Below are positions 7,204-24,962 of a DNA stretch of 33,069 bases, in pieces; position 1 is the first letter of the stretch, and each line of letters begins with the position of its first letter. The translations under genes and the position numbers were made by a program. The notes below the pieces were generated by a model. That model had not been told where the DNA came from, made no database searches, and was given only the letters and a program-made list of their open reading frames with translations. The stretch comes from a virus, in the IMG/VR virus record IMGVR_UViG_3300045116_000113, positions 1 to 33,069 of that record; one strand, written 5' to 3'.

Positions 7204-8304
7204 ATGGACGTGATGGTGAACCGTGATGACCTGATTCGTGAACTAGAGGTCGTTGACCGCGCCGTGGCGCGCAAGGTGACGATCCCCGTGCTGGCGAACG
7301 TCTTGGTGGCGGCAGAGACCAACGGGACCGTGATGACCGCCGCGACGGACCTTGACCTCAGCATCCGCTCATGGTGGCGCGGGCGCGTCTCCATCGCCGG
7401 GACTAGGACGATTCCGGCGCGCAAGCTCGGAGACGTCGTCAAGACGCTGCCGACCGGTGCGGATGTGCGGCTCGCGTCACCGCTCGAATCGAGCGTGGAG
7501 ATTACGTCAGCAGGCGTCCGCGTGTCGCTACAGACACTTCCGGCGCAGGACTATCCGCTGCTCCCGGCAACGCCGGAAACGGCGCCATTCATCATGGCTC
7601 GGGACCGGTTGAAGGAGACGCTGCAGCGCGTTCGGTTCGTGATCCCACGTGGCGAGGCTGATAAGCGGTTCTATCTCGCCGGTGCGCTCCTTGAGGTCGC
7701 GGACGGCCGCGCGCGCGTCGTCGCGACCGACGGACACCGCCTCGCGCTCGTAGAGATGGCAGCGCAGGGGCAAGAGCAGCTGCGTGAGATCATCGCCGGG
7801 AGCGCGGTTGAGGCGCTGCCGTCGGTCATCGACTACGGTGACGGGAACGACGTCGCGGTACGTGTCGGAGAGAGCCACGTATTCTTCGATACGCCGCAGC
7901 GGACACTGATCGCGCGCCGCTCGTCTGGAGAGTTCCCGAAGTACGTCCGCATCATCCCGGCGGACCGTGAAGAGCGGCTTATCGTGTCGCGCGCTGACCT
8001 CGCGGACTGTGCCCGGCGCGTGCTCGTCGTTGGTGACCAGCAGAAGGCTATCTTCATCGCATCACACGCCCAGCTGGAGGTGTCGGCGGCCGGACAGGAT
8101 GGCGTGCTGATAGAGAAGCTGGCGGCGCAGTACGGCGGCGTAGAGATGAAGATCGCGCTCAACGCGTCGTACGTGGCGGAGTTCCTTGACGCGGCCGGGA
8201 CCGAGCAGGTATCATTCGAGACGGCTGGGCCGGATGCGCCGATGCAGTGGCGGGCGGTCGGTGATGAGTCATACCGCTACGTGTTGATGCCGATGCGGCT
8301 ATAG
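7204..8304 (+). CDS. dnaN: DNA polymerase III beta subunit (sliding clamp)
   Basis: DnaN is the ring that tethers replicative polymerase to DNA. The 366-residue length is that of a bacterial clamp. Diagnostic blocks are KVTIPVLANVLV near residue 27, TDLDLSIR near 52, QDYPLLP near 122, VVATDGHRLALVEM near 180, RRSSGEFPKYVRIIP, and the C-terminal YRYVLMPMRL in place of the usual VVMPMRL. The ATG at 7204 follows ataggaggatcgtgc. No polymerase was seen in this window, so the clamp probably works with a host or distantly encoded polymerase. A phage-encoded clamp is uncommon but known. Confidence 0.95.
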   Translation: MDVMVNRDDLIRELEVVDRAVARKVTIPVLANVLVAAETNGTVMTAATDLDLSIRSWWRGRVSIAGTRTIPARKLGDVVKTLPTGADVRLASPLESSVEITSAGVRVSLQTLPAQDYPLLPATPETAPFIMARDRLKETLQRVRFVIPRGEADKRFYLAGALLEVADGRARVVATDGHRLALVEMAAQGQEQLREIIAGSAVEALPSVIDYGDGNDVAVRVGESHVFFDTPQRTLIARRSSGEFPKYVRIIPADREERLIVSRADLADCARRVLVVGDQQKAIFIASHAQLEVSAAGQDGVLIEKLAAQYGGVEMKIALNASYVAEFLDAAGTEQVSFETAGPDAPMQWRAVGDESYRYVLMPMRL

Positions 8305-8313
8305 GAGGCAGTG

Positions 8314-8601
8314 ATGTACGATCCTGGACCGTGGCGGCGCGGGCAGAGGGATGACAACCGTGACGTCGTTGAGACGCACGATGGGAAGGTGATCGCGTTA
8401 GTCGTCGATGCTGATCGGAACGGGGCGCTGCTCGCGGCAGCGCCGGACTTGCTGTCGGCGCTGAATGAAGCGTGCGGCTACATCAAGGACACGCGCGACC
8501 AGATCGAGTCGTTCGGGAAGGCGGTCGAGTTGCCGCCGCCGGACGTGGAACCGGCCGCGCTGGAGCGGCTCATGCGTCGGGCCGAGGGGTTGCCCGGATG
8601 A
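8314..8601 (+). CDS. Small conserved phage protein (AAPDLL type)
   Basis: This 95-residue protein reads VDADRNGALLAAAPDLLSALNEACGYI in its middle. The N-x-x-L-L-A-A-A-P-D-L-L signature recurs in many short uncharacterised phage proteins. The ATG at 8314 is preferred over the GTG at 8311 because AGGAGG (8303-8308) then has a normal spacing of 5. It overlaps the next gene by ATGA. No function is known. Confidence 0.65.
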   Translation: MYDPGPWRRGQRDDNRDVVETHDGKVIALVVDADRNGALLAAAPDLLSALNEACGYIKDTRDQIESFGKAVELPPPDVEPAALERLMRRAEGLPG

Positions 8602-9263
8602 CGTACTACCGCGACGGCGCCGTGGACCCGCAGTTCGCGAAGCTGATGCTGACGCTGGCCGAGGCGCTCGGCGCGAAGCTGACCGAGTCGCGGATCCGCA
8701 TCTACGCGCGGTTGCTCGGAGACGTTCCGTATGAGCAGCTGCGCGTGGCGTTCACGCGGGCCGCGAACGAGGAAGAGTCTGGGTTCTTGCCGACGGTCGG
8801 GAAGCTGCGGCGTTATATATCGCCGAGCGAAGACGACGCCGTAGTGCTAGCGTGGACGGCGCTGGCCGGGGCTGCTGAGACCGTCGGCGCGTGGCAGAGC
8901 ATCGAGGTCGAAGACGGCGCGGCAGCTGAGGCGTTGCTCGCCGCGTTCGGTAGCTGGCAGGCATACTGCGAGACGGAGCACGGCCCGGCGCTCGCGCTCA
9001 AGCGGCAGGAGTTCTTCGCCGCCTATCGGCAGGCCGTGCGTACTGGGGCCGGGCGGCGGCCGTGGAAGCGGCTGCCCGGCGCGAGCGAGGCCAGCGGGCA
9101 GGCACACGCAGCGGGCGGAAGGCATACGTGGGCGGCACGGTTAACGGCGCACGGGTTAGTGGAGGCCGTGCGCGACACGCCGCGCTTGAGTGGAGGAGGA
9201 ACCGATGGACGGGCTGCGCTTCCCGAAGGGCGAGACACGCAAGGCAGAGAAGGCGCGGAATGA
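8598..9263 (+). CDS. Probable phage replication accessory protein
   Basis: The 221-residue product begins with DPQFAKLMLTLAEALGAKLTESRIRIYARLLGDVPYEQLRVAFTRA, then SGFLPTVGKLRRYI. This arrangement (a helical bundle followed by FLPTVGKLR) resembles phage and prophage proteins sometimes annotated as replication accessory or helicase-loader-like. Helical sequence with WQAYCETE follows, then a disordered Gly/Ala/His-rich tail. It lies downstream of the clamp gene. The C-terminal 59 bases overlap the HNH gene. A loader role for the DnaB at 16904 is inference only. Confidence 0.6.
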   Translation: MTYYRDGAVDPQFAKLMLTLAEALGAKLTESRIRIYARLLGDVPYEQLRVAFTRAANEEESGFLPTVGKLRRYISPSEDDAVVLAWTALAGAAETVGAWQSIEVEDGAAAEALLAAFGSWQAYCETEHGPALALKRQEFFAAYRQAVRTGAGRRPWKRLPGASEASGQAHAAGGRHTWAARLTAHGLVEAVRDTPRLSGGGTDGRAALPEGRDTQGREGAE

Positions 9264-9591
9264 TCGCGCCGAAGCGATGCAGAAGCGTGCCGTGCGCCGG
9301 ATGGTTGCGGGGCGCGACGGGTACTGTCGCCTTGCGCGCGTGGTTCGGCGTGACTTGGGTGATGAACGCGAGGTTGCGGCGCTGTGTGGCGGCCCGTCCG
9401 AGTGGGCGCACCTAGAAGACCGGCGACGGTCGCGGACGGTGGGCGAGGCGCCGGAAGCGCGACACACGACGGCAGGAACGGCGATGCTGTGCCGGGACCA
9501 CCACCAGCTCTATGACCGGCACCGTATTCAGATCACGATGCTCTCCCGGTACGGCGCTGACGGGCCGATGCGGTTTAGGGAGGGACGCTGA
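9205..9591 (+). CDS. HNH-like endonuclease or zinc-binding nuclease
   Basis: The ATG at 9205 follows GGAGGAGG, giving 128 residues. Candidate zinc and active-site elements are DGYCRLA, LCGGPSEWAHLEDRRRS and AMLCRDHHQLYDRH. The layout C...C...H...C..HH resembles HNH nucleases in which AHL...R is followed by LCxxHHxxYD. HNH enzymes of this size act in phage packaging or as homing or DNA-processing nucleases. It overlaps the preceding gene by 59 bases and the following gene by one. The classical second His-Asn pair is not exact, so activity is uncertain. Confidence 0.65.
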   Translation: MDGLRFPKGETRKAEKARNDRAEAMQKRAVRRMVAGRDGYCRLARVVRRDLGDEREVAALCGGPSEWAHLEDRRRSRTVGEAPEARHTTAGTAMLCRDHHQLYDRHRIQITMLSRYGADGPMRFREGR

Positions 9592-10262
9592 TGGCGAAGC
9601 GGAAGGTGCGCAACATCCGGCGCGCGGAACCGGAGACGGAGAAGCCGCCCGGAAAACTCCGGGCCGGAGCGACGGCGCTAGCCGTCGTCAGGGAACCGGG
9701 CATCGTCGTGCCGTTCGCGCCGGGGTTTCGACTCAGTGTGAACGGGCTGGTCGTAGACGGGACGCCGTCGCTGGAGGAGTCGGACGCGGCCGGGACGGTG
9801 CTCGTTGTCGCGGAGCGGTCTTCCGGATTCGCTATCGGTGACTTCGTGAACTACGTTGAGGCGCGGTTCGGTGAGGAGGCGTCGCAGATCATCGACGAGA
9901 GCCACGGCTGGTCGCTGCAGACGGTTAAGGTCTACGCATGGCTGGCGCGGGCCGTGACGCCGGACGTGCGGCGGATGGACCGGCTCGGCGTCCGCCACCA
10001 CATGCTCGTGGCTGAGAAGCCGCCAGGCATACAGCGTGAGTGGCTGAACCGCGCCGCCGATGCTGCTGACGGCCCGTGGACGGTGGCGCGGATGGGGGCG
10101 GAGATGAAAGCCGGAGGCGTTCTGGTAGAGACGGCGTGGTGGGTGATCGTGGCAACGGCCGGAGCCGACGAGCAGGCGAAGCTGATCGCGCGGATGCAAG
10201 CTGAGGGGTTGTCGGCCAAGCCCCTCGTGCGCCGGAAGCGGCGCGGGAAGGAGACGAGATGA
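9591..10262 (+). CDS. Putative DNA-binding phage protein (ParB/HTH-like helical core)
   Basis: The 223-residue protein has a basic N-terminus. A core follows that reads FAIGDFVNYVEARFGEEASQIID, TVKVYAWLARAVTPDVRRM, LGVRHHMLVAEKPPGIQREWLNRAAD and GPWTVARMGAEMKAGG. This order (W/F-x-x-GD..NY.E..YG, S..T..N..WVAR, S..HH..VA, WSV..LR) matches a helical HTH-type core seen in uncharacterised phage and plasmid proteins. The C-terminus is basic (KPLVRRKRRGKETR). It is likely nucleic-acid binding; the target is unknown. The stop overlaps the next start (ATGA). Confidence 0.6.
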   Translation: MAKRKVRNIRRAEPETEKPPGKLRAGATALAVVREPGIVVPFAPGFRLSVNGLVVDGTPSLEESDAAGTVLVVAERSSGFAIGDFVNYVEARFGEEASQIIDESHGWSLQTVKVYAWLARAVTPDVRRMDRLGVRHHMLVAEKPPGIQREWLNRAADAADGPWTVARMGAEMKAGGVLVETAWWVIVATAGADEQAKLIARMQAEGLSAKPLVRRKRRGKETR

Positions 10263-10726
10263 GTAAGCTAGCACAGTCGGTGCAGAAGGCGGTCGATGAG
10301 CTGGGGATCGATCCGAACATGGGCGTAACGGATGTAGGGGGTGCGGGGATGATGAAGACACCGGAGCAGAAGGCGAAGCATGCAGCGCGTGAGCGCGCGA
10401 GACGGGCGGCGGCGAAGCTGGTGGCGCGGCCGAAGAACGAGGCGAAGCCGCTCGGAGTGAAGTCGGCGGTGAAGGTGGTGGACGAAGCGGCGACGAAGCG
10501 AAGGCGCGGCGCGTATCCGACGGGCGCAGAGAAACCGAAGAACGTTCGGACCGGCCTCCGTGATCGGCCGAAGAATAAGAGGCTTGCTATTACCCGCGCC
10601 GGTGCGCGCGACGTGACGTTCAAGGCGCTGGCGGCGCTCGTGGCTGGAGGTAACCTGACCGAGAACGAGCGGTTCGAGGCCGACCGGATGATCGCGCGGC
10701 TGCGCGCGCGTGGAGTGGCTGGTTAA
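10259..10726 (+). CDS. Basic hypothetical protein
   Basis: This 155-residue protein is very rich in Lys, Arg and Ala and is probably largely disordered in the middle (ARERARRAAAKLV, ATKRRRGAYPTGAEKPKNVR). The C-terminal 50 residues look ordered: VTFKALAALVAGGNLTENERFEADRMIARL. The charge suggests nucleic-acid binding. The start uses an ATGA overlap with the preceding gene. No family was recognised. Confidence 0.55.
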   Translation: MSKLAQSVQKAVDELGIDPNMGVTDVGGAGMMKTPEQKAKHAARERARRAAAKLVARPKNEAKPLGVKSAVKVVDEAATKRRRGAYPTGAEKPKNVRTGLRDRPKNKRLAITRAGARDVTFKALAALVAGGNLTENERFEADRMIARLRARGVAG

Positions 10727-10742
10727 GACGTGGAGTCGGACG

Positions 10743-10952
10743 ATGGCGAATGACCACAAGCAACTTCGGAAGGCGTACCCGAAGGATCAGCTGTTGATGG
10801 ACGGCGTTTTCGACGATGAGACGCTACGGAAGATCCATGAAGCGCAGAGCGGCGACCACTTCGAGGCCGTTGACCTTGATATCGAAACGGAATATTGCTG
10901 CCCGTCATGCGGATATGAATGGAGCGGCAATCCGAAGCCGGGAAGGTCATGA
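10743..10952 (+). CDS. Small acidic protein with a CPSC knuckle
   Basis: This 69-residue protein ends with YCCPSCGYEWSGNPKPG, half of a zinc ribbon, which could bind metal as a dimer. The N-terminus is MANDHKQLRKAY. Its stop overlaps the start of the cytosine methyltransferase, so it may be translationally coupled to the modification cassette. The ribosome binding site is weak (gtggagtcgg). Function is unknown. Confidence 0.55.
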   Translation: MANDHKQLRKAYPKDQLLMDGVFDDETLRKIHEAQSGDHFEAVDLDIETEYCCPSCGYEWSGNPKPGRS

Positions 10953-12652
10953 CGATGGTGAAGAAGAAGCCGACCGCGCAACCGGTGTTCGCCTTCGACG
11001 TGGGATCCGATGTGGTTGATGCTGAACTGGCCGGACACGGCGTCCGGCCGGTCGCAGCCGTTGAGGTTAGCGACGTGAAGATACCTGAAGTCGAGATCCG
11101 GCGTGGCGTCGTCGACCAGTCTCAGTGGTTCGCTGGGACGAGGCCAAGCTCAGGCGCGCGGAGGAAGACGATTGATGCGTCCCAACCGGCGCCGACGGTA
11201 ATGGCGGGAGGCTTGGATTCAGTTAACACGGGGCAGTACCATGTCGCTGTTGATGACGATGAGGCCGTGTTAGATCCGGATAAGCCGCGCTACCGCATCC
11301 CGTTGATGACGGAGATCGCGGCGTGGGAGAAGAACGGCCTCGTCGTCGTGTCGACGTTTTCTGGCTGCGGTGGGTCGTGCCTCGGGTTCAAGATGGCTGG
11401 CTATCACGTGCTGTGGGCGAACGAGTTCATCCCGGCAGCGCAGGAGACGTACCGCGCGAACCACCCGGAGACGCACCTGTCGACCGAGGACATTCGGCAG
11501 GTCACGGGAGAGAAGATCCGCGCTGTCATTGGGAACGTTGAAGTGGATGTCTTCGAGGGTAGCCCGCCGTGCGCTTCGTTCAGCACGGCTGGGAAGACGT
11601 CGAAGGGCTGGGGCAAGGAACGTAAGTACTCGGATACCAAGCAGCGGACTGATGACCTGTTCGAGCAGTACGTGCGGCTCGTCGACGAGCTACGCCCACG
11701 GGCGTTCGTCGCGGAAAACGTCGCTGGCATGGTTAAGGGCGTGTCGAAGGGCTACTTCAAGCGGTACCTGATGATGTTCCGCGACCTACCCTATAACGTT
11801 GAGGCGCGCGTGCTTGACGCGCAGTGGCTCGGCGTCCCACAGCGACGGAAGCGGCTGATCTTCGTCGGCGTTCGGAAGGACGTTGGGCGTCCAGCGTGGC
11901 CGACGAAGCTGCCCTATCGCTATTCGGTCCGTGAAGCGATTCCTTGGATACGTGACGCTAGGTCGGGGGCGTACGGACCAGCTGATTATTCGACGATAGC
12001 AAACGCGAATCTTAGCGCTGACCGTCCGTGTCCGACCGTCATGACGAACGGTAGTAAGGAGCGACTCTATAGACATGAGGTCGTTGTTGACGGCCTGACT
12101 TGTCAGTCTAGTGGGGAGGATGGATCTACTACGTCTGGAAAGATGGTGGAGATCGGTATGGGGGCGTCTGAGGACTGCTGTGGGTGTGTCGAAAATGATG
12201 AGCGCGTGGTCGGCATCGAGCACCAGTCTGGTTACGACCGAAAACGCGGGAAGGTCCAAGACGTTGATGACCCGAGTGAGACTATCGTCTCAGGCCGCCC
12301 GGTCGTCGTGTTGGTGGAGCGGGAAAGCGCCCTCGGCAACGCCGTCGGGCGTGAGTGGGACAAGCTGGACGTCGGCGGGCAGAGTGATAAGTACCTGAAC
12401 CTGATCCGGCCTGATGCTGACCAGCCGTGCCCGACCGTGACGCAGCTCGGCGGGACGTCGGCCGCGTCGGTAACGCACCCCTATGAGCGGCGTAAGTTTT
12501 CCATCGCGGAGCTGCGCCGGATCTGCGGCTTCCCTGACGACTTCATCCTGACTGGCACGTACTCACAGCAGTGGGAACGCCTCGGACGCGCGGTGCCTCC
12601 ACCGATGATGCGTGCTATCGCCGAGGCGCTAGAAGGAGTGCTGAAGCCTTGA
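10949..12652 (+). CDS. C5-cytosine DNA methyltransferase, candidate carboxymethyltransferase
   Basis: The 567-residue enzyme has the C5-methyltransferase motifs in order: I STFSGCGGS near 135-143, IV EGSPPCASF with catalytic Cys208, VI AENVAGM with Glu256, VIII VPQRRKRLIFVGVR, and X LGRAVPPPMM near 545-554. Motif X is normally GNA/S; here Asn is replaced by Arg547. In the engineered CpG enzyme M.MpeI, changing this Asn to Lys or Arg is reported, as I recall, to allow use of carboxy-SAM. Genes for carboxy-SAM synthesis follow immediately. The protein is longer than usual, with about 130 residues before motif I and four PTV/TIV-type segments. The middle (about 11930-12260) is visibly less GC-rich, perhaps an exchanged target-recognition domain. 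The alternative is a normal 5-methylcytosine enzyme. Confidence 0.93.
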   Translation: MTMVKKKPTAQPVFAFDVGSDVVDAELAGHGVRPVAAVEVSDVKIPEVEIRRGVVDQSQWFAGTRPSSGARRKTIDASQPAPTVMAGGLDSVNTGQYHVAVDDDEAVLDPDKPRYRIPLMTEIAAWEKNGLVVVSTFSGCGGSCLGFKMAGYHVLWANEFIPAAQETYRANHPETHLSTEDIRQVTGEKIRAVIGNVEVDVFEGSPPCASFSTAGKTSKGWGKERKYSDTKQRTDDLFEQYVRLVDELRPRAFVAENVAGMVKGVSKGYFKRYLMMFRDLPYNVEARVLDAQWLGVPQRRKRLIFVGVRKDVGRPAWPTKLPYRYSVREAIPWIRDARSGAYGPADYSTIANANLSADRPCPTVMTNGSKERLYRHEVVVDGLTCQSSGEDGSTTSGKMVEIGMGASEDCCGCVENDERVVGIEHQSGYDRKRGKVQDVDDPSETIVSGRPVVVLVERESALGNAVGREWDKLDVGGQSDKYLNLIRPDADQPCPTVTQLGGTSAASVTHPYERRKFSIAELRRICGFPDDFILTGTYSQQWERLGRAVPPPMMRAIAEALEGVLKP

Positions 12653-12678
12653 ATGCTTCGAGGAGGTATATAAGGCCG

Positions 12679-13131
12679 TTGATTATCGGAGAGGCTCCCT
12701 CGCGTGTCGGCGATCCGCGTCGGCCGATTACGGGTCGCTGCGGGGAGAAGTTGGCGATGATTAGCTGTCTTTCTGGTAGGGCGTTCGCGCGGGTGTTCGC
12801 GCGGGCGAACGTCCTTGAGGTGTGGCCTGGGCCGAGTGGGAGGAAGGGCGCGGCGTTTCCACTGGCGCTCGCGCGCGCGCAGGCTGTGCGCCTACGTCGG
12901 AGGTTCTACCGAGGGCGTGTCGTGTTGCTACTTGGTCATCGTGTGGCTGCGGCGTTCGGCGTGCGCGCGTCCTACCTAACGCGCGTGGTCGTCGGTGGGG
13001 CGGACGTCTTCGTGCTGCCGCACCCGTCCGGCGTTAACCGGTGGTATAACGACGCCGCGAACGTGGCGCGGCTCGGGCGGCTCCTGCGTGGATTCGTGGC
13101 TCATGAGAAGGAGATAGGCGATGGTGAATGA
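12679..13131 (+). CDS. Uracil-DNA-glycosylase-superfamily protein
   Basis: The readable core begins LIIGEAPSRVGDP with PITGRCGEKLA, and near the C-terminus has FVLPHPSGVNRWYND. These correspond to the GEAPG motif and HPS motif of the UDG superfamily (family 4/5 style). The protein is short, 150 residues from TTG 12679 (AGGAGG 13 bases upstream); TTG 12649 is the alternative start. GEAP is followed by S rather than G, so the base recognised may differ from uracil. It lies between the cytosine methyltransferase and CmoA genes. It could police or process modified or deaminated cytosine, or it may have lost glycosylase activity. Confidence 0.7.
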   Translation: MIIGEAPSRVGDPRRPITGRCGEKLAMISCLSGRAFARVFARANVLEVWPGPSGRKGAAFPLALARAQAVRLRRRFYRGRVVLLLGHRVAAAFGVRASYLTRVVVGGADVFVLPHPSGVNRWYNDAANVARLGRLLRGFVAHEKEIGDGE

Positions 13132-13849
13132 GGGCGACGCGGTGGTGGATAGGACGATGCCGACGGGGCCGTGGAAGTTCGATCCGGAGGTGACGGCGGT
13201 CTTCGACGACATGCTTGAGCGGTCGATCCCGCAGTACGACGTTATGCGGAGGGCGATCTTTGATACCGGCCGCGCGTTCGTCACGTCGAAGACGGACGTG
13301 GTAGACCTCGGCTGCTCGCGCGGCGGCGCGCTGGCCGACTTCGTGAAGCACTTCGGAGCGCACAATCGGTTCATCGGTGTCGACGTGAGTGAGCCGATGC
13401 TGGCGGCGTCGCGGGAGCGGTTCAAGCACTACATTGATGCTGGCCTCGCGGATATCCTCAACCTGGACTTACGCGTGGCCTATCCTCCGGTGAAGGCGTC
13501 GTTGACGCTCGCAGTCTTCGCGCTCCAGTTCATTCCAATCGAGCATCGCCAGCGGGTCGTGCAGGAGATGTATGACCACACCGTGGACGGTGGCGCCGTC
13601 ATCGTCGCGGAGAAGGTGCTCGGCGCAACGGCGCGGATCGACCGGACACTCGTTGCGAACTATCACGCGATGAAGCAGGAGCACGGCTATTCGCAGGAGG
13701 CCATCGAGCGCAAGCGCCTGTCACTTGAGGGCGTGCTCGTCCCGGTGACGGCCGCGTGGAACGTTGAACTGCTGCACCAGGCAGGGTTCCGGCAGGTGGA
13801 CTGCTTCTGGGCGTGGATGAACTTCAGGGCGTTCGTGGCGATCCGCTAG
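13121..13849 (+). CDS. cmoA: CmoA, carboxy-S-adenosyl-L-methionine synthase
   Basis: CmoA converts SAM and prephenate to carboxy-SAM, releasing phenylpyruvate and CO2-derived water chemistry products. This 242-residue protein (E. coli CmoA is 247) aligns with it nearly end to end from memory: GPWKFDPEVTAVFDDMLERS, DLGCSRGGAL, LQFIPIEHRQ, GGAVIVAEK, HGYSQEAIERKRLSLEGVL and LHQAGF. Lys198-Arg199 fall at the same numbers as in E. coli, where Arg199 contacts the extra carboxylate as I recall. In bacteria the product is used by CmoB for tRNA cmo5U34; no CmoB is encoded here. The start follows aaggagatag and overlaps the UDG-like gene by 11 bases. A plain methyltransferase is the alternative but fits worse. 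Confidence 0.88.
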   Translation: MVNEGDAVVDRTMPTGPWKFDPEVTAVFDDMLERSIPQYDVMRRAIFDTGRAFVTSKTDVVDLGCSRGGALADFVKHFGAHNRFIGVDVSEPMLAASRERFKHYIDAGLADILNLDLRVAYPPVKASLTLAVFALQFIPIEHRQRVVQEMYDHTVDGGAVIVAEKVLGATARIDRTLVANYHAMKQEHGYSQEAIERKRLSLEGVLVPVTAAWNVELLHQAGFRQVDCFWAWMNFRAFVAIR

Positions 13850-13858
13850 GTGGCGATT

Positions 13859-14689
13859 ATGCCGAATCTCTACGCACTCGTAGATGGTCGGCCTAGAACA
13901 GTCGTCGACGTCGCTGGAGTTAAGGTCGGCGGCAACGACGTCGTCGTGATGGCGGGGCCGTGCGCGGTTGAAAGTGAGCGGATGATCTTCGACGTAGCGC
14001 AGGCTGTGGCGCGATCCGGCGCCTGCGTGCTGCGTGGAGGCGCCTTTAAGCCGCGAACGTCGCCGTATTCCTTCCAGGGGCTTGGTGTCGAGGCGCTGCG
14101 GCTCCTTCGCGCCGCAGCAGACGCGAACGGCTTAAAGGTCGTGTCTGAGATCATGGACGTGTCATACCTGCCGGACATGGAACGGTACGTGGACCTGCTC
14201 CAGATCGGCGCACGCAACATGCAGAACTTCTCGATGCTGCGTGAGATCGGCCGGAGGACGCGCCTGCCGGTGCTCTTGAAGCGTGGCATCTCGGCGACGG
14301 TTGATGAGTGGCTCGCGGCGTCTGAATACGTGCTCGCCGGTGGAAACGCCGCGGTGATTCTCTGCGAGCGCGGCGTGCGTGGATTTGAGCCGCGTGAGCG
14401 GAACATGCTCGACGTGACGGCGATCCCTGTCCTTCGTGAGCTGACGCATCTTCCAGTGATCGTCGACCCGAGCCACGCGACCGGCCGCAGGTCGCTCGTG
14501 TCGCCGGTCGCGGCCGCTGCTATCGCGGCTGGAGCGGACGGCCTGCTCGTCGAGGTGCATGATGATCCGACAGTGGCGCTGAGCGACGGTGAGCAGTCGT
14601 TGGATCCTGCGTGCTTTGAGGCGATGATGAATCGCGTGTGGTCTATCGGATCGGTCCTTGGGAGGTCCGTGCATGCGAAGCCTGCGTGA
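13859..14689 (+). CDS. DAHP synthase (AroF/AroG-like, class I beta)
   Basis: The enzyme condenses phosphoenolpyruvate and erythrose 4-phosphate to DAHP, the first step to chorismate. Family blocks are [68 protein letters not shown] and [20 protein letters not shown]. At 276 residues it is a bare catalytic barrel without the ferredoxin-like or fused chorismate mutase regulatory domain, so it may escape feedback control. A GTG at 13850 is an alternative start. It is followed directly by chorismate mutase, the two activities being fused in B. subtilis. Here it most likely boosts prephenate for CmoA. The related KDO8P synthase is less likely because of the neighbour. Confidence 0.9.
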
Positions 14690-14939
14690 ATGCCGGAGAG
14701 AAGTTGACGCCGTCGATGCAGCCATCGTCGTCCTCTTAGAAAAGCGCGCTACGCTCGCGAAGGAGGCGCTGGCTATTAGGAAGTCGCTCGGTAGGCCTGG
14801 CCGCGACCTGGCGCGAGAGCGTCAACTCCTCTCAGCTGTCGGGGGTATGTTCGCTGGCGTGCTCATGAAGTCCGCTCGTCGGCGTATCTATCGGACGGTT
14901 CTGGCGGAGATGCGAGCCGCGCAGCGCGTGGAAGACTAG
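14673..14939 (+). CDS. aroQ: AroQ-type chorismate mutase
   Basis: Chorismate mutase rearranges chorismate to prephenate. The 88-residue protein is a short all-helical AroQ domain: [44 protein letters not shown]. Aligned by eye with the E. coli domain, Arg5, Arg25, Arg36 (in place of Lys), Asp45, Arg48 and Glu49 occupy active-site positions. No prephenate dehydratase or dehydrogenase domain is attached, so prephenate would accumulate. It starts behind ggagg with 7-base spacing and overlaps the DAHP synthase stop. Prephenate is the co-substrate of the CmoA encoded two genes upstream. Confidence 0.85.
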
Positions 14940-14949
14940 GAGCGAGCTA

Positions 14950-15924
14950 GTGAGAATTAAGCCCTATCCGTCGTGGGTGCCGCCACCGAGAGAGGAACAC
15001 GTCCGCGTGGCAAGAGAGATCCTGCGCTTTATGAATGAGCCGGTGCAGTGCAAGCTGCTTAATGAAGCGTGCTGGAGCGCCTCGCCGTCGTGGCGCCGTC
15101 CCATCGAAGAGCGGTTTAAGCATTCTGAAGCCCTTGGTAAGAAGATGGGCGACGGCATTAGGTATACCAAGGAGAACCTGCGGCATGCCGCGCGAGACGG
15201 CATCGGCGGCCTATGCTACGGTGGGGCCGGGCTACCGTGCGTGGTGTTCCTCCACGAGTGGGTCGATCCGGAGTTGATCAACGTCGGGTGCCGGTACGAG
15301 ATTGTGGTGACGGACGAGATGCGGTCGTGCGCCATAGATGAGATGACGCGGCGATGGCACGCGCTGCACGCTCGCGTCCGGCCGCCGCGTCTCTTTGAGG
15401 CATACGTGTCGCAGTGGGCGGTGCGGCTGGACTTTATGGCGCGGTGGCCAAAGATCGTTATCGAGCCGTCGAATGAGCATCGTGCGGACCTTCCTGCAAT
15501 CGACGACCTCCGCTTCAATATCGGGAGCCGGATGTACTTCGTAGACGTGGCGACGCGGAACAAGAACGGCGCCTTCGGCGGCCTTGAGAAGTCCGTGGGT
15601 GGACAGTGCGCTAACTTCCACCTGCTCTGCGACTACGAGTATGACGGGTCGCTGCTTTCACGCGTCTTCGTCGTCGGGTGGTGCCTGCATCCTCAGTTCT
15701 CTCGTGGAGTGCCTGACGCGCTTCAGACGCAGAGCCTTGACCGGCTGATCGTGCAGCTGAACATGGAAGCGAGCGGCCTATCTATCGATATCCTGCGCCG
15801 TGCGGAGGCACTTGACCGAGAGAGGCGGATCCGGAAGATTTATGAGGCTGGTCACGACATCCCGCACTTTACGCCGCGACAACGCGTGAAGCATCCAGAT
15901 GCAATGGAGTTCCGGTTTGACTAG
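14950..15924 (+). CDS. Unknown protein in the modification cassette
   Basis: This 324-residue protein starts at GTG 14950 behind aggag (7-base spacing). I recognise no family. Notable segments are VFLHEWVDPELINVGCRYEIVV (middle), LRFNIGSRMYFVDVATRNKNGAFGG (about residues 190-215) and LLSRVFVVGWCLHPQF. The FVDVATRNK strand is reminiscent of a PD-(D/E)XK core but lacks the exact D/E-x-K. It sits between chorismate mutase and an MT-A70 methyltransferase and overlaps the latter. It could be a nuclease, a further base-modifying enzyme or an accessory protein. Codon use is less GC-biased than in the replication genes, as for its cassette neighbours. Confidence 0.7.
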   Translation: MRIKPYPSWVPPPREEHVRVAREILRFMNEPVQCKLLNEACWSASPSWRRPIEERFKHSEALGKKMGDGIRYTKENLRHAARDGIGGLCYGGAGLPCVVFLHEWVDPELINVGCRYEIVVTDEMRSCAIDEMTRRWHALHARVRPPRLFEAYVSQWAVRLDFMARWPKIVIEPSNEHRADLPAIDDLRFNIGSRMYFVDVATRNKNGAFGGLEKSVGGQCANFHLLCDYEYDGSLLSRVFVVGWCLHPQFSRGVPDALQTQSLDRLIVQLNMEASGLSIDILRRAEALDRERRIRKIYEAGHDIPHFTPRQRVKHPDAMEFRFD

Positions 15925-16477
15925 CCAGGATCGCTACGGTGTTATCGTCGCGGACCCGCCGTGGCACTACCGCCAGACTCCGCGCAGCTCTGCAGCGCGC
16001 CACTACCGGACGATGACGGTAGAGCAGCTAACGGCGTTGCCGGTATCCGCGCTCGTCGCGGAGCATGCGGTGTTGTTCCTATGGGCAACGTGGCCGAACC
16101 TTCCGGAAGCATTGAGTGTTGTAAGTGCATGGGGGTTTACCTACGTGTCAGGCTTCCCGTGGGTTAAGACGTCACGGGATCCGGAGATGACGTTGTTCGG
16201 TCTGAAGGCGCGCGTGGCGCTCGGTGTTGGATGGTGGGTACGCGGTGTTAGTGAGCCGATCCTGATCTGTCGTCGCGGCCGGGTAAGGATCCCGAAGAAT
16301 CCGTATGCGGGCTTGCTTGCGAAGCGGCTAGAGCATTCACGCAAGCCTGAGTCTATCTACGCGATGGCAGAGCGGTTTAACGGACCGTATCTGGAATTGT
16401 TCGCGCGGCGCCGCCGGGCCGGGTGGGATGCATTCGGGAATGAGGTTGAGGGTTCAGTTACGCTGGAGGGTGGATGA
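15899..16477 (+). CDS. MT-A70-family N6-adenine methyltransferase
   Basis: This is a SAM-dependent adenine-N6 methyltransferase. It has the catalytic ADPPWHY motif (Asp19-Pro-Pro-Trp), HYRTMTVEQLTALP, the SAM-site segment GVSEPILICRRG, and the C-terminal signature HSRKPESIYAMAERFNGPYLELFAR...GWDAFGNE typical of phage members. From ATG 15899 it is 192 residues; a TTG at 15917 with GGAG at 8-base spacing is an alternative start. It overlaps the unknown gene before it and the resolvase gene after it (ATGA). It probably methylates phage DNA adenines. Because carboxy-SAM is likely made in the same operon, use of that cofactor is a possibility without motif evidence. Confidence 0.9.
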   Translation: MQWSSGLTSQDRYGVIVADPPWHYRQTPRSSAARHYRTMTVEQLTALPVSALVAEHAVLFLWATWPNLPEALSVVSAWGFTYVSGFPWVKTSRDPEMTLFGLKARVALGVGWWVRGVSEPILICRRGRVRIPKNPYAGLLAKRLEHSRKPESIYAMAERFNGPYLELFARRRRAGWDAFGNEVEGSVTLEGG

Positions 16478-19323: not shown

Positions 19324-19497
19324 CTAGGGAACCGGGGGGCCGGGGGCGGCCGGGAGACGGAATCGGGGCGGGGCCGGGGGTGGCCGGGCAGGATAAGCCC
19401 AACCTGCCAGACTGCCGCCGCCGTTTGGGAGAGCAGCGGCCGGAAGTGCGCCGGGCGGCGCACGGCCCGGCTCCGCTCCGAGCTGCGAGGAGGAGTG

Positions 19498-20487
19498 ATG
19501 CGCGTTGCGGTCACGGGGGCATCGGGGTCGTTGGGGCGGCAGCTGATCCGTCGGTTGGCGCAGAGCGGGGCGGAACGGATCGTGGCCTTCAGCCGCGATG
19601 AGCAGCGCCGGGCGCAGCTGCTAGCCGACTTCGGATGGCATCCGGGCGTGCGCGTCTTTGCCGGAGACGTTCGCGACCGCGAGCGACTGCGGCACATCTT
19701 CGCCGGATGCGACACGGTCATTCATGCGGCGGCAAGGAAGGTCGTGTCGGCGCTTCCGGATGAGGCGCGCGAGATGCTGCTGACGAACGTCGAAGGCACG
19801 CTCAACGTCATCGACGCGGCGCAGGCTGCGCGCGCCGGGAAGCTGCTGTTCATCTCGTCGGACAAGGCCGTGGAACCGCACAATGTGTACGGCGTCTCGA
19901 AGGCGATGGCTGAGCACCTCATCATCAACGAGAATGCGCGCACGTACCCCAGCGGGCTTCGGATGGCCGTGTTGCGCTACGGGAACGTGCTCGCGTCGCG
20001 CGGGTCCGTTGTGCAGGTGTGGCGGGAGCGGCTAGCCCGTGGGTTGCGTCTCGGCGTCAGCGACGAGCGCATGACCCGCTTCTGGATGACGCTCGGGCAG
20101 TGCGTTGACTTCGTGCTGGGGGCGCTCGCGGACCTGCGCGGTGGCGAGGTCTTTGTGCCGTATGCGCTACCGGCGGCGCCCATCACGGTGCTGGCGCAGG
20201 CGCTCGGCGCCGAGTCGTGGGACGTGACCGGCATCCGGCCGGGCGGCGAGAAGTTACACGAGTCGCTGCTGTCGGCTGCGGAAGTGACACGCGCTCGGGT
20301 GCGTAATCTGTTCTGGGTCGTGCCGCCGTACCAGCACGATCACATGTGGGACAACGCGCCGTGGATCGGTAGCCCGGCGGCGCCAGACTTCTGCTACGCC
20401 AGCGGCCTCGGGCCGTTCCTAGACGCGGAGGGGATGCGGGCATTGCTAGCGCGCGTCGATGCGGAGGAGGTGGCGTGGAACGCATAG
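19498..20487 (+). CDS. UDP-GlcNAc 4,6-dehydratase-like (PseB/CapD-type) epimerase/dehydratase
   Basis: The 329-residue SDR-fold protein starts RVAVTGASGSLGRQLIRRL (NAD(P)-binding TGxxGxxG). It continues with FAGDVRDRERL, CDTVIHAAARKVV, NVEGTLNVIDAA, then FISSDKAVEPHNVYGVSKAMAE and VLRYGNVLASRGSVV. SSDKA...Y..SK and the GNV block are signatures of PseB-like inverting 4,6-dehydratases, the first step of pseudaminic-type sugars. The C-terminus has RPGGEKLHESLLS as in the family. The ATG follows gaggaggag. It opens a seven-gene overlapping sugar cluster. Confidence 0.85.
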   Translation: MRVAVTGASGSLGRQLIRRLAQSGAERIVAFSRDEQRRAQLLADFGWHPGVRVFAGDVRDRERLRHIFAGCDTVIHAAARKVVSALPDEAREMLLTNVEGTLNVIDAAQAARAGKLLFISSDKAVEPHNVYGVSKAMAEHLIINENARTYPSGLRMAVLRYGNVLASRGSVVQVWRERLARGLRLGVSDERMTRFWMTLGQCVDFVLGALADLRGGEVFVPYALPAAPITVLAQALGAESWDVTGIRPGGEKLHESLLSAAEVTRARVRNLFWVVPPYQHDHMWDNAPWIGSPAAPDFCYASGLGPFLDAEGMRALLARVDAEEVAWNA

Positions 20488-21218
20488 CAGCCGTCGTTCA
20501 GGCGCGCATGGGGTCGTCGCGGCTCCCCGGCAAGAGCTGCATGCCGATAGCCGGGGCGCCCATGTTGGAGCACGTGCTCCGGCGCGCGCTGGCCGTACCG
20601 GGCGTCGCGGCCGTCGTTCTGGCGACGTCGGTCAATGAGCGGGATGCGCCGTTGGCCGAGTTGGCGTGGCGCCTCGGGTGCGGTGTGATCCGGGGCAGCG
20701 AGCATGACGTGCTCGGCCGGTTCGCCGCCGCGCAGCAGGCGTTGCGCGTCGAGCGCGTGATGCGGATCACGGGCGACTGTCCCCTGCTATGCGTGGACGT
20801 CTGCGAGGCGACGTTGCGCGCCGCGTTGGAGTCGGGCTACGACTTCGTGACAAACGATACGGACCAGAGCGGCTACCCGGACGGGACCGACTGTGAGGTG
20901 ATCACGGCCTGGGCGCTGGCGCAGGCGGACCGCTATGCGACGACGGCCTCGGATCGCGAGCACGTGACGCGGTGGATTCGGCGGCATGTGCCGTCGCGCG
21001 TTGCGATGGCGCCGGAAGGATCGCGGTGTCCGTTGGCGTGGAAGTGGAGCGTGGATGACGGCGCGGATCTTGCTCGCGTTCGCCGCATCTTCGGCGCCTT
21101 ACGCGGGTCGGGCGGCTATACTTTAGGCAGCGCGGCGGACGCTTGCCGCCGCGTCGAACAGGAGGACAGCCATGCGTACACTGATCATCGCGGAGACGGG
21201 CTGCACGCACGAGCGTGA
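20475..21218 (+). CDS. SpsF-like cytidylyltransferase-family protein
   Basis: The protein (247 residues from GTG 20475, ribosome binding site ggaggagg) starts ERIAAVVQARMGSSRLPGKSC, the nucleotide-binding signature of SpsF/NeuA-like nucleotidyltransferases. RGSEHDVLGRF, RITGDCPLL, TNDTDQSGYPDGTDCEV and DREHVTRWIRRH follow. Relatives activate nonulosonic acids with CMP or act in spore-coat polysaccharide synthesis. It is placed before a NeuB-like synthase and overlaps it by 47 bases. The terminal 15 residues, read over the next gene, are probably not conserved. Confidence 0.85.
   Translation: MERIAAVVQARMGSSRLPGKSCMPIAGAPMLEHVLRRALAVPGVAAVVLATSVNERDAPLAELAWRLGCGVIRGSEHDVLGRFAAAQQALRVERVMRITGDCPLLCVDVCEATLRAALESGYDFVTNDTDQSGYPDGTDCEVITAWALAQADRYATTASDREHVTRWIRRHVPSRVAMAPEGSRCPLAWKWSVDDGADLARVRRIFGALRGSGGYTLGSAADACRRVEQEDSHAYTDHRGDGLHARA
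21117..21122 (+). promoter_or_regulatory. Possible internal -10-like box (TATACT)
   Basis: GGCTATACTTTAG is an AT-rich island near the end of the SpsF-like gene, about 50 bases before the NeuB-like start. It resembles GGCTATAATA before the portal gene. It could give internal transcription of the sugar cluster. The evidence is only sequence resemblance. Confidence 0.25.
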
Positions 21219-22014
21219 CCTGAATGCGTTGCGGGCGCTGGTGTCGCTCGTAGCGGACTGCGGGTGTGATGTCCTGAAGACGCAATGGACGAGCGACCCG
21301 GATGCGATGTGCGCCCGGCGCGACGCTCCAGACTATCGGCCGTACTACGAGTGGCTGCGGTTCCCGCTGCCGTGGCACGGGGAACTGGCCGCCCTCTGCG
21401 CTAGCCGGGGCTTGCGCTACGCGACGACGGTCTATCTGCCCGAGGACGTCGCGGCTGTAGACCCGTTCGTGTCGCTCTACAAGGTGGCGGCGTTCGAGGC
21501 CGGGGCCGACGATCTCCTTGCGGCTTACTGGGACGTGATGTCGCGCAACGATAAGCAGCTGTTCATCAGCGTGTCGATGGGCCGGGCGTGGGATCCGTCG
21601 GCGGCCGTGCCGCCGGAGTTCGCCGCGCGGGTCGGGGCGCTGCGCTGCGTGTCGGCCTATCCGACACCGGCTGACCAGCTCCAGTTGTCGACGATCCGGG
21701 CGCAGGGATTCGTCGGGCTGTCCGACCACACGGCGCCCGAGATGACGGATACCGGGGCGCTGGCCGTGGCTGCTGGGGCGACGGTCGTCGAGCGGCACGT
21801 CAGGTTGGAGTCTTGCCGCCAGACCAACCCGGACTTCGCCGTGGCGATGGGCGCGCACCAGTTTAGCGACTACGTGGCGCGCATCCGCCGGGCGGAGGCG
21901 GCGATGGGCGAACCGGAAGCTACGGAGGCGCAGCCGTCCGAAGTACCGATGATGCCGTTCCGGGCCGCCCCCAAGCGGGCGCGGGCGATGCGGCGTACGA
22001 CGGTGGAAGAATGA
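21172..22014 (+). CDS. NeuB/SpsE-like nonulosonic acid synthase, without SAF domain
   Basis: NeuB-family enzymes condense phosphoenolpyruvate with an N-acetyl-hexosamine to a nine-carbon sialic-type acid. The 280-residue product shows LIIAETGCTHERDLN at the N-terminus (an altered IAEIGxNHxGD motif), CDVLKTQ, RGLRYATTVY, YKVAAFE, LFISVSMG, RCVSAYPTPADQLQL, GFVGLSDHT and ATVVERHV. These mark the TIM-barrel catalytic domain. The C-terminal antifreeze-like SAF domain is absent and replaced by a short charged tail, so substrate handling may differ. The start follows aggaggacagcc. Confidence 0.85.
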   Translation: MRTLIIAETGCTHERDLNALRALVSLVADCGCDVLKTQWTSDPDAMCARRDAPDYRPYYEWLRFPLPWHGELAALCASRGLRYATTVYLPEDVAAVDPFVSLYKVAAFEAGADDLLAAYWDVMSRNDKQLFISVSMGRAWDPSAAVPPEFAARVGALRCVSAYPTPADQLQLSTIRAQGFVGLSDHTAPEMTDTGALAVAAGATVVERHVRLESCRQTNPDFAVAMGAHQFSDYVARIRRAEAAMGEPEATEAQPSEVPMMPFRAAPKRARAMRRTTVEE

Positions 22015-22862
22015 CGTCGAGGCGTTATTGCGACCGCAGCGACGTCCCTCGCGAGGAGTGGGACGGCTACGTGGCAGCGCACCGGGACGGCTGGGTATGG
22101 CAGCTGAGCGATTGGCTCGACTACCTAGCTGCCTGGGGGCGGCGAGACTTGAGCACGGCGACGGTTGAAGGCGGACGGATACTGGGCATCTGTCCGGAGT
22201 TTGCGCCGCCGTATGATGACGATCCGCTACCCGCGCCGCTCGGGGACGCGAAGCCGAGCGCCACGCTCCATCGGGGCCAGCCGCAGCGCGCCGTGACGCC
22301 GCTGGGTTTCCGGACGCACGTTGTAGACCTACGGCATACGGATGCTGAGCTGTGGCGCGGACTTCGGCGGTCCTATCACTCGCTCATCCACCGGGCGCAG
22401 CACCAGTACGTAACTGCCGACATCACGCCGTCGACGTTGTGTCGGCTCTTTGTTTCGCAACCCGAGTTGCCGCAGATTCCGGAGGCGGCATGGGCGTGCT
22501 TGTGTCGGCTGTGGGAAGCGCAGCGGCTCTGGATCCTCGGTGCGTGGACGCACGAGCGGAGGCTAGCCGGGGCTATCGCGATCTACCGGTGGAAGGGCTG
22601 GGCGTACTACGGACACGGGCGGTCCGTCGAGCCGAACGTGAACCACCTGCTGCACTGGGATGCGATGCGTCGGCTACGCGACGGAGGTTGGGCGCACTAC
22701 TACGAGGTCGGATGGGAGGCGCGGCCCGAGGACGACGCCAAGGCGCAGGCTATTGCCTTCCACAAGGCCGGGTTCGGCGGCGAGTCATGGTGGGTGCCGG
22801 TGTTCACAAACCGGATGGAGGAGGGGCGCGCTGATGTGGGAGCAATCGCAGCGGTGTCATGA
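22011..22862 (+). CDS. FemAB/GNAT-like acyl- or aminoacyltransferase
   Basis: The 283-residue protein has the layout of FemAB-like (BioF2/CelD-type) transferases. An N-terminal YVAAHRDGWVWQLSDWLDYLAAWG is followed by LRRSYHSLIHRAQHQYVT in the middle. Then come ILGAWTHERRLAGAIAIYRWKGWAYYGHGRS, NHLLHWDAMRRLRDGG and the C-terminal AIAFHKAGFGGESWWVPVF. Such enzymes transfer acyl or aminoacyl groups to amines on glycans or peptides. In this cluster it probably decorates an amino-sugar. It overlaps both neighbours. Confidence 0.8.
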   Translation: MTSRRYCDRSDVPREEWDGYVAAHRDGWVWQLSDWLDYLAAWGRRDLSTATVEGGRILGICPEFAPPYDDDPLPAPLGDAKPSATLHRGQPQRAVTPLGFRTHVVDLRHTDAELWRGLRRSYHSLIHRAQHQYVTADITPSTLCRLFVSQPELPQIPEAAWACLCRLWEAQRLWILGAWTHERRLAGAIAIYRWKGWAYYGHGRSVEPNVNHLLHWDAMRRLRDGGWAHYYEVGWEARPEDDAKAQAIAFHKAGFGGESWWVPVFTNRMEEGRADVGAIAAVS

Positions 22863-24093
22863 CCGGGCCGTGGTCATTCCGGGCCGGTCGCTCACGCGGT
22901 CCAAGGCGCCGGGGCGGTACTACCCGGTCGGCTCGGGGCCACTCTACGCCGTCGGCGGGCACGGCGCGATGATTGAGACGGTTGACGGCACGTCGATGAT
23001 CGACATGGTGTGCGCGCTCGGGGCGATCAGTCTCGGCTACGGCGCGCGGCCGATCCGGGCATCGCGCGAGGTGGCGCGCGGGTGGGTCTACTCGCTGCCG
23101 AGTCCGCTGGAGGCGGAGGCGGCTGAGCGGTTGCTGCGCGTGTGCGCGCCGTGGGCGTCACGCTGCCGGTTCGTCAAGACCGGTAGTGAGGCGCTACAGG
23201 CAGCCGTGATGATTGCGCGGGCGTGGACGCGGCGGCCCGCCGTCCTCGTGGCTGATAGCGCCTACCATGGCTGGCATGACTGGATGGCAGCCAGTTATAA
23301 CGGGCTGGGCCGCGTCAGCGGTTCGCAGATGTTCCGGTGGGGCGCCGATGACGTGTGGCCGAACGGCGTGCCGTGCGCCTATACGCAAGGGATCGCCGTC
23401 TACAAGTACGGCGACCTCGATGATCTCCTGGCGGCGGTGGCGCGGATCGGTGAGAAGAACGTGGCCGCCGTGCTGGTAGAACCGGCGCGCTGGCGCGCGA
23501 CGACGTTGGGGCAGATGGTGGACGTCCGCGCGTGGTGTAGCGAGCGCGGCGCACTCATGATCCTCGACGAGATGATCTACGGCGGCCGGTGGCGGAAGGG
23601 CGGCGGGGCAGAGTACTTCGGCGTCACGCCGGACCTCGCGTGTTTTGGGAAGGCCATCGCCAACGGAGCGCCCATCGCGTGCGTGGTCGGCAACGATCCG
23701 CTCGACGCGCACGGCCAGCAAGTATCCGGCACCTATAGCGGAGACGCAGCGTCACTCGCGGCCGTGGATGACACGCTGGCCGTCTACGAGAGCGAGCCGG
23801 TGATTGAGCGGCTCTGGGCCGTCGGCGAGCATCTGGCGCGCGGCTTGTGGAAGCTCGCGGATGCGTTCAACGATGACGCGGGTGAAGTGCGCGTTGAGTG
23901 CGAGGGCGCCTTCGTTCACCAGCGTATGCGGTTCACGGACCCGGACCTCGGGCGGCGGTTCTCGGCGCAGATGGCGGCACGCAGTGTGCTCTGGCATCCG
24001 GAGTGCGTGAACGTCTCGTATGCGCACACGAAGGAACACGTGGATGCCGTGCTGCGGTGCGCGCAGGAGGCGTTCGAGGAGATCAAGACATGA
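22834..24093 (+). CDS. Class III PLP aminotransferase (glutamate-1-semialdehyde aminomutase-like)
   Basis: The 419-residue PLP enzyme has MIDMVCALGAISLGYG, VKTGSEALQAAVMIARAWT, YHGWHDWMAASY, AAVLVEPARW, LMILDEMIYGGRW (Asp245, cofactor-binding) and CFGKAIANGAPIACVVG (Lys273, Schiff base). Then SGTYSGDAASLAAVDDTL. This is the glutamate-1-semialdehyde aminomutase-like branch often used in bacterial surface-sugar clusters to aminate keto-sugars. The ATG at 22834 lies behind ggaggagg, although the spacing is long; it overlaps the FemAB-like gene by 29 bases. A role in heme synthesis is unlikely in this context. Confidence 0.88.
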   Translation: MWEQSQRCHDRAVVIPGRSLTRSKAPGRYYPVGSGPLYAVGGHGAMIETVDGTSMIDMVCALGAISLGYGARPIRASREVARGWVYSLPSPLEAEAAERLLRVCAPWASRCRFVKTGSEALQAAVMIARAWTRRPAVLVADSAYHGWHDWMAASYNGLGRVSGSQMFRWGADDVWPNGVPCAYTQGIAVYKYGDLDDLLAAVARIGEKNVAAVLVEPARWRATTLGQMVDVRAWCSERGALMILDEMIYGGRWRKGGGAEYFGVTPDLACFGKAIANGAPIACVVGNDPLDAHGQQVSGTYSGDAASLAAVDDTLAVYESEPVIERLWAVGEHLARGLWKLADAFNDDAGEVRVECEGAFVHQRMRFTDPDLGRRFSAQMAARSVLWHPECVNVSYAHTKEHVDAVLRCAQEAFEEIKT

Positions 24094-24962
24094 GCCGCGT
24101 CAAGCAGCTCTGCTTCGGGACGGCCAAGGTCGGAATGCCGTGGTACGGCCTCGGCTCAGTGTCGCGCCCGAACGTTCGCGAGCGGATGAGCCTCGTACGC
24201 ATGGCCGTAGACGTCGGGATCCCGTGGCTCGATACCGGGTCCGCCTACGGCGACGCCGAGCACTACATCGAAGCCGGAGCCGTGAGCCTACGGGACGTGC
24301 GCGTGGTGACGAAGTTGGCGCCGCACTTCGCGGCGCAGGCGATGCGCTACGTCGAATGGCTCCATCCGGACGCCGCGCTGCTCCACAATCCATCGGAGGC
24401 GCAGCTGGCAGATGCGGGCTTCATGGAGGAGTGGAAGGACGTGTGCGCCAACGTACCGGCGCGGGCCGGGGCGTCGGTCTACGATCCGGTCGAGGTCGAT
24501 GCTGTGAGCCGGGCACGGCTCACGGTCGTGCAGGCGCCGTTCTCGCTACTGGATACACGGAGCCGTGTCGCCTTGAAGTGCGCATCGCTGGACGGGCTGA
24601 TGACGTTCGCCCGCTGCCCGTTCGCGCAGGGTATTCTGACGAACGGTGAGTATCGGGAAAGCGGCGACCCGGCAGACGATACGGCGGCCGACGTCGCCGC
24701 GCGGTTCTACGGGCGCATCTTGGAGCCGACGTGCCGCCACTACGGGGTTACGCCGGTTGAAGCGGCGCTGTGGTATGCGCTGGATGAGAGTGGCGCCGAC
24801 TACGTGGTGTTCGGGGCCGGGAGCCTCGCGCATCTGGAAGAAGTGGTTGCGGCGGCGGACCGAGTGCCGCTGGACGGGTGGGGGCCGTGCAAGGCCGAGT
24901 TGGAAGCGGGCGCGGCAGGCACTCCGACAGTTGCGTTCGGGTCACTGTGGAGGGCGCGATGA
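24090..24962 (+). CDS. Aldo/keto reductase-like oxidoreductase
   Basis: The 290-residue barrel enzyme starts VKQLCFGTAKVGMPWYGLG, followed by GIPWLDTGSAYGDAEHYI (catalytic Asp and Tyr of the AKR tetrad), VRVVTKLAPHF (Lys), LHPDAALLHNP (HN in the His position), VVQAPFSLLD and ARCPFAQGIL. AKR proteins of this kind accompany nonulosonate and spore-coat sugar genes together with NeuB/SpsE homologues. It overlaps the aminotransferase and GNAT genes by ATGA. The substrate is presumably a keto-sugar of the same pathway. Confidence 0.82.
   Translation: MSRVKQLCFGTAKVGMPWYGLGSVSRPNVRERMSLVRMAVDVGIPWLDTGSAYGDAEHYIEAGAVSLRDVRVVTKLAPHFAAQAMRYVEWLHPDAALLHNPSEAQLADAGFMEEWKDVCANVPARAGASVYDPVEVDAVSRARLTVVQAPFSLLDTRSRVALKCASLDGLMTFARCPFAQGILTNGEYRESGDPADDTAADVAARFYGRILEPTCRHYGVTPVEAALWYALDESGADYVVFGAGSLAHLEEVVAAADRVPLDGWGPCKAELEAGAAGTPTVAFGSLWRAR

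Follow-up and report, generated by a model that had tools for sequence, protein, structure and literature searches.

The window analysed here is a 33-kb metagenomic fragment of viral DNA, 33,069 nucleotides at its full length. It contains a closely packed series of genes on the + strand in the order cmoX, UDG-superfamily, cmoA, DAHP synthase (DAHPS), chorismate mutase (CM) and an orphan gene:

10743..10952, +, small open reading frame ahead of cmoX, ending CCPSCGYEWSGNPK (by-eye comparison)
10919..12652, +, CmoX-type DNA cytosine C5-carboxymethyltransferase homologue, 577 aa (PF00145, 8e-57; match to 8YF3)
11570..11572, +, codon of the predicted catalytic Cys218 in GSPPC (EGSPPC), aligned to SpCmoX Cys98
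12587..12589, +, motif X Arg codon CGC, aligned to SpCmoX Arg350 and M.HhaI Asn304
12679..13131, +, UDG-superfamily protein P0006 with GEAPS...HPS motifs (PF03167, 1e-5; phrog_12275; probable TTG start at 12679)
13121..13849, +, CmoA homologue, predicted carboxy-SAM synthase, 242 aa (4GEK/1IM8; phrog_4752, 5e-71)
13850..14689, +, stand-alone type I-beta DAHP synthase (PF00793, 1e-74; start GTG 13850 or ATG 13859)
14673..14939, +, monofunctional AroQ-type chorismate mutase, 88 aa, ATG 14673 (PF01817, 3.5e-13)
14950..15924, +, orphan gene, 324 aa, between the chorismate mutase and MT-A70 genes

Downstream of the orphan gene lie an MT-A70 methyltransferase (15899-16477), a RuvC-like resolvase and, by ORF reading, a DnaB-type helicase. 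The orphan gene (P0005, 14950-15924) gave zero matches in Pfam, NCBIfam, PHROG, phage and IMG/VR searches, and its single-sequence AF2 prediction is unusable (mean pLDDT 33). By eye, the CCPSCGYEWSGNPK tail of the small ORF resembles the zinc-ribbon tails of ParB-like proteins that precede cmoX in L033 and L107, and 10743..10952 is possibly a ParB remnant. A homologue of the UDG-superfamily protein is present in 12 of 164 CmoX/CmoA loci and in 0 of 80 sister loci; it recurs near cmoA/cmoX in L088, L089, L093, L105, L112, L122, L131 and others. As a speculation, it might repair deaminated 5cxmC. PaBG and TurkishDelight CmoY queries found no match to the CmoY ligase, an AMP-forming amide ligase resembling Asn synthetase, in the 33-kb fragment, which is possibly incomplete. 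The fragment also harbors a nonulosonate-type sugar pathway (19495-25405), with genes for a PseB-like dehydratase, a cytidylyltransferase, a NeuB/PseI-like synthase, a class III aminotransferase, an aldo-keto reductase and a GNAT protein.

CmoX of Synechococcus phage S-B43, published in December 2025, is a natural phage cytosine C5-carboxymethyltransferase which uses carboxy-SAM (Cx-SAM) made by CmoA (PMC12783734). M.HhaI has Asn-304 at the motif X place; in the SpCmoX crystal structure (8YF3) this residue is replaced by Arg350, which touches the carboxymethyl group of Cx-SAM. Wild-type SpCmoX uses Cx-SAM only, whereas the R350N variant uses neither SAM nor Cx-SAM. Its SPPC motif spans S95-C98, with Cys98 as the catalytic residue (PMC12783734).

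The first-pass annotation had read an Arg in place of Asn in motif X of the window's C5-methyltransferase, and the codons bear this out: LGRAVP is encoded at 12581-12598 (ctc gga cgc gcg gtg cct, within ...QQWERLGRAVPPPMM...) and lies in the motif ERLGRAVPPPMM (ERLGRAVPP) of the 577-aa PF00145 protein at 10919-12652. Since the protein belongs clearly to PF00145 (8e-57), the string is a true motif X and not a chance occurrence. The ORF has alternative starts at ATG 10949 and ATG 10955, so that the Arg547 of that annotation, counted from ATG 10949, is residue 557 from ATG 10919 and 545 from ATG 10955. At the aligned place, M.HaeIII and DNMT1 have GNAVP.

By sequence, the top PDB match of the protein is SpCmoX 8YF3 (E 5e-59; second match 9e-25). 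An AF2 model likewise ranks 8YF3 first by fold (Z 37.3; second 32.4), with an rmsd of 2.1 over 305 residues at 35% identity. Arg557 falls on chain residue 350 of 8YF3, counted along the HMMER alignment. The SpCmoX cofactor contacts F25, E47, F48 and D69 correspond to F147, E169, F170 and D191 in the window, and all six cofactor and catalytic residues checked are conserved. The protein differs in an N-terminus longer by about 100-115 residues and in a long variable region ahead of motif IX. On a tree it nests within the Arg-type clade. Arg is invariant at motif X in a CmoX alignment of 52 rows, which were pre-filtered for G[RN] at that motif, and it occupies the motif X column in 120 of 127 C5-MTase ORFs from fetched CmoX/CmoA loci. 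The proposal that this Arg marks a carboxymethyltransferase thus gains support, since the residue aligns with the Cx-SAM-contacting Arg350 of SpCmoX (8YF3). The proposal was right, yet the type of enzyme is already known as the CmoX family. Judged by these homologies, the CmoX and CmoA of the window are very probably a DNA cytosine-carboxymethylation pair. Elsewhere in the family, an intein-like insertion interrupts CmoX right at the catalytic SPP/C junction in Yersinia phage fHe-Yen9-02 (L005:31540-33618), and Erwinia phage CmoX matches have the same split.

E. coli CmoA converts SAM and prephenate into Cx-SAM, and cells without aroC, which have no chorismate, lack significant cmo5U (PMC4482062). 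In the E. coli enzyme, Arg199 is the only residue touching the Cx-SAM carboxylate; Arg199 of the window CmoA (codon 13715-13717) aligns with it. TIGR00740 is the best-scoring family for the window protein at 160 bits, under its equivalog cut-off of 193 bits, a score which would be expected for the phage branch, yet is not proof. Other phage CmoAs are 28-48% identical. The window CmoA alone, used as a query in a close-relative scan of viral contigs, found no relatives, and alignments were required. Among CmoA-bearing phage contigs tested, 26 of 30, many of them fragments, have no C5-MTase anywhere in the record. Thirteen contigs of this kind (L096, L097, L098, L100, L102, L103, L123, L128, L129, L130, L142, L149 and L161) carry a conserved gene of 504-547 aa upstream of cmoA. 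In L129, for instance, this gene occupies 8291-9811 and CmoA 9992-10705; the upstream gene encodes a ParB domain at the N-terminal end and matches class I methyltransferases weakly. It may represent another kind of DNA transferase that uses Cx-SAM.

The DAHP synthase scores over the curated cut-offs of TIGR01361 (374 against 267.75 bits) and NF006421 (401 against 335). Its match covers profile positions 80-336 of 338, and since it begins only at position 80, the enzyme is without the N-terminal regulatory part of longer bacterial forms. The best PDB match, 1VS1, is likewise a stand-alone enzyme. C38, K67, R122, K144, R174, H209, E235 and D246 are invariant in an alignment. DAHP synthases without a regulatory domain are known to escape aromatic feedback. 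As a sole query, the window DAHP synthase found no relatives in the close-relative scan of viral contigs, so that alignments were again needed; PF00793 was found in 0 of 100 other CmoX/CmoA records searched. A bacterial donor was not found among the 80 relatives kept, which share 51-62% identity and are spread across phyla. DAHPS matches in INPHARED were set aside as likely bacterial contamination because they are unannotated, come mostly from 'UNVERIFIED' assemblies, and none is among the CmoA matches listed.

The chorismate mutase gene overlaps the 3' end of the DAHP synthase gene. Its product scores 50 bits against PF01817 (cut-off 27) and has no ACT or dehydratase domain. Aligned with the CM of E. 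coli PheA, it conserves R11, R28, D48 and E52; K39 is replaced by Arg, and activity is not assured because this Lys39 is catalytic in the E. coli enzyme. A PF01817 protein occurs in three of about 147 other CmoX/CmoA records, in differing gene orders: cmoX-cmoA-CM in L033, CM-cmoX-cmoA in L107 and CM-cmoX-cmoY-cmoA in L141. A fusion of CM to CmoA in L033 was considered and rejected, since inspection of the reading frames separates them into two genes. Identity among the four CM proteins is only 24-41%, and on the CmoX tree (a quick tree with moderate support) their presence requires four changes on separate branches. None of 50 control phage records from the sister family has a CM. The frequency of 3 in about 147 against 0 in 50 is not significant by itself; it is the adjacency that counts. 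With CM in about four of some 150 CmoX/CmoA records and DAHPS in one, the supply genes are optional.

These genes can be arranged into a single pathway. The DAHP synthase, without its regulatory domain, would feed the shikimate pathway of the host with phosphoenolpyruvate (PEP) and erythrose-4-phosphate, and host enzymes would produce chorismate. The monofunctional phage CM would convert chorismate to prephenate, from which, together with SAM, the phage CmoA would form Cx-SAM and phenylpyruvate. The CmoX-type enzyme would then attach the carboxymethyl group to cytosine C5 in the phage DNA; Arg557 of motif X would hold the carboxylate, and Cys218 would act as the nucleophile. The resulting 5cxmC, bare or modified further, would protect the DNA from restriction. 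The steps from CmoA onward are based on homology to biochemically shown enzymes, and those up to prephenate on domain identity and gene order. The region 10919-14939 can be regarded with good confidence as a phage DNA cytosine-carboxymethylation operon that has its own precursor supply.

DAHPS and CM directly follow cmoA, overlap each other and share its strand, and their role is likely the supply of prephenate: between them, the two enzymes would unlock the beginning and the end of the path to prephenate, leaving the intermediate steps to the host. This supply logic, which we infer, is attractive because phenylpyruvate, from which Phe is made, is released with each Cx-SAM formed. Phe is the classic feedback inhibitor of the DAHPS and CM steps. 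The demand for prephenate can be estimated from the 4274 GpC sites of the window, which correspond to about 8500 target cytosines in 33 kb if the GC specificity of SpCmoX is assumed. An occupancy of 75% has been reported for S-B43 (PMC12783734). On the same assumption of specificity, this level would consume about 6400 Cx-SAM, and hence prephenate, per fragment copy, and roughly 600,000 for 100 copies. A SAM pool of 180 uM, as in E. coli, amounts to about 100,000 molecules per femtolitre. Set against this pool, the demand for Cx-SAM means that extra prephenate would plausibly matter. It appears moderately likely that some phages have become independent of host prephenate in this way, with a deregulated DAHP synthase and a chorismate mutase rewiring the shikimate pathway toward Cx-SAM and DNA carboxymethylation, and with CM recruited independently several times.

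DAHPS and CM could instead be general auxiliary metabolic genes which raise the supply of aromatic amino acids for the synthesis of phage proteins, their position behind cmoA being incidental. Phage DAHPS is classed as an auxiliary metabolic gene in PHROG 5045, viral chorismate mutase has been interpreted as serving aromatic amino-acid synthesis (PMC10465536), and phenylpyruvate, the by-product of CmoA, likewise leads to Phe. This explanation is nonetheless unlikely, given that CM sits within the cluster of four CmoX/CmoA contigs in varying order and is absent from all 50 control records, and that Pfam scans recognised no further aromatic amino-acid gene in the window.

Far less probable is an ordinary SAM-using C5-methyltransferase that makes 5mC, its motif X Arg a product of neutral drift and cmoA serving, for example, tRNA cmo5U. 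The overall C5-MTase architecture would suit such an enzyme; against it stand the conservation of Arg across a diverse family, the exclusive use of Cx-SAM by SpCmoX with the same Arg, and the way in which Arg follows cmoA. To survey the latter, viral contigs were scanned with a CmoX alignment, using patterns that exclude motif X, and with a CmoA alignment, giving 158 loci. Arg being common without cmoA nearby, which the first-pass annotation had named as one observation that would speak against its reading, was not seen in this family: each of the 78 loci with Arg from the CmoX scan also has a CmoA homologue, and all 39 Arg-type records tested as whole records carry cmoA. In the nearest sister C5-MTase family, the motif X Asn gives way to Met (GMSVPP); a scan with this family (L169, L171, L177-L256) found no CmoA homologue in any of 80 Met-type loci. 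For 78/78 against 0/80, Fisher's test gives p 4e-47, a value that ignores shared ancestry and overstates the strength of the association because related contigs are not independent. The pattern of co-occurrence is nonetheless clean.

The exceptions are few. L011 is the lone member of the CmoX clade with Asn at motif X (GNSVPP), and no CmoA was found in its 39-kb record; its position within the Arg-type sequences on the tree suggests a natural reversal. Together with the Met-type family, L011 offers natural controls for a cofactor choice governed by one residue. Conversely, three C5-MTases beside CmoA lack an Arg in the aligned motif X column (for example YNRCSGVPS): L007:9497-10513, L135:7876-8925 and L138:5840-6865. 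Arg350 is therefore not the sole possible solution, and these enzymes possibly bind Cx-SAM in another mode.

A role of the DAHP-synthase-like enzyme as a KDO8P/NeuB-type aldolase for the nonulosonate cluster at 19495-25405, outside the shikimate pathway, is suggested by the shared superfamily and the NeuB/PseI homologue in the window, but is the least probable reading and was rejected on score margins (401 and 374 bits for DAHPS models against 102 for KDO8P synthase and 19 for NeuB), in addition to which a 16-residue segment is the DAHPS I-beta signature and the gene overlaps the chorismate mutase gene, while the sugar cluster lies about 5 kb off with its own NeuB.

The reading preferred here, a carboxymethylation operon with prephenate supply, would place central-metabolism genes of a phage in the service of DNA modification, and it suggests that some viral 'amino-acid' genes be re-read. 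If it is true, viral auxiliary metabolic genes annotated as chorismate mutase, asparagine synthase and 'DNMT1' might be parts of one DNA-modification pathway. In a rumen virome study, DNMT1, asparagine synthase and chorismate mutase appear as individual entries among the viral metabolic genes (PMC10465536); they could correspond, in that order, to the CmoX, CmoY and CM of a single pathway.

The closest known system is CmoA-CmoX(-CmoY) of S-B43 (PMC12783734; 8YF3), with which the window shares the C5-MTase fold, GSPPC, the motif X Arg, the checked Cx-SAM-contact residues and a nearby cmoA. The window adds DAHP synthase, chorismate mutase, a UDG-like protein and the orphan gene, its CmoX has a longer N-terminus and variable region than SpCmoX, and no CmoY ligase was seen in the fragment. 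The engineered carboxymethyltransferase M.MpeI N374K (cited in PMC12783734) similarly has a positive residue for the motif X Asn that pairs with the carboxylate; it is, however, a laboratory Lys variant with CG specificity, whereas the window has a natural Arg in another branch of C5-MTases. The E. coli CmoA-CmoB pathway to tRNA cmo5U (PMC4482062) shares the formation of Cx-SAM by CmoA from SAM and prephenate, and the dependence on chorismate (aroC); there the transferase is CmoB and the acceptor tRNA ho5U, while in the window a DNA C5-MTase homologue takes this place. Fusions of type I-beta DAHPS with AroQ CM (5J6F, 3NVT) and the stand-alone DAHPS 1VS1 represent the same enzyme families and, in the fusions, the same pairing. 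In contrast to the fusions, the window encodes separate, overlapping genes, with a DAHPS that has no regulatory domain, within a DNA-modification operon. The discoverers of CmoX named the availability of prephenate as an open question (PMC12783734), and the terms chorismate, mutase and DAHP are absent from the part of that paper's text available. What appears to be new here is the joining of prephenate-supply genes to the known CmoA-CmoX system: with both ends of the prephenate route encoded beside cmoA, the locus offers a testable genetic answer to that question.
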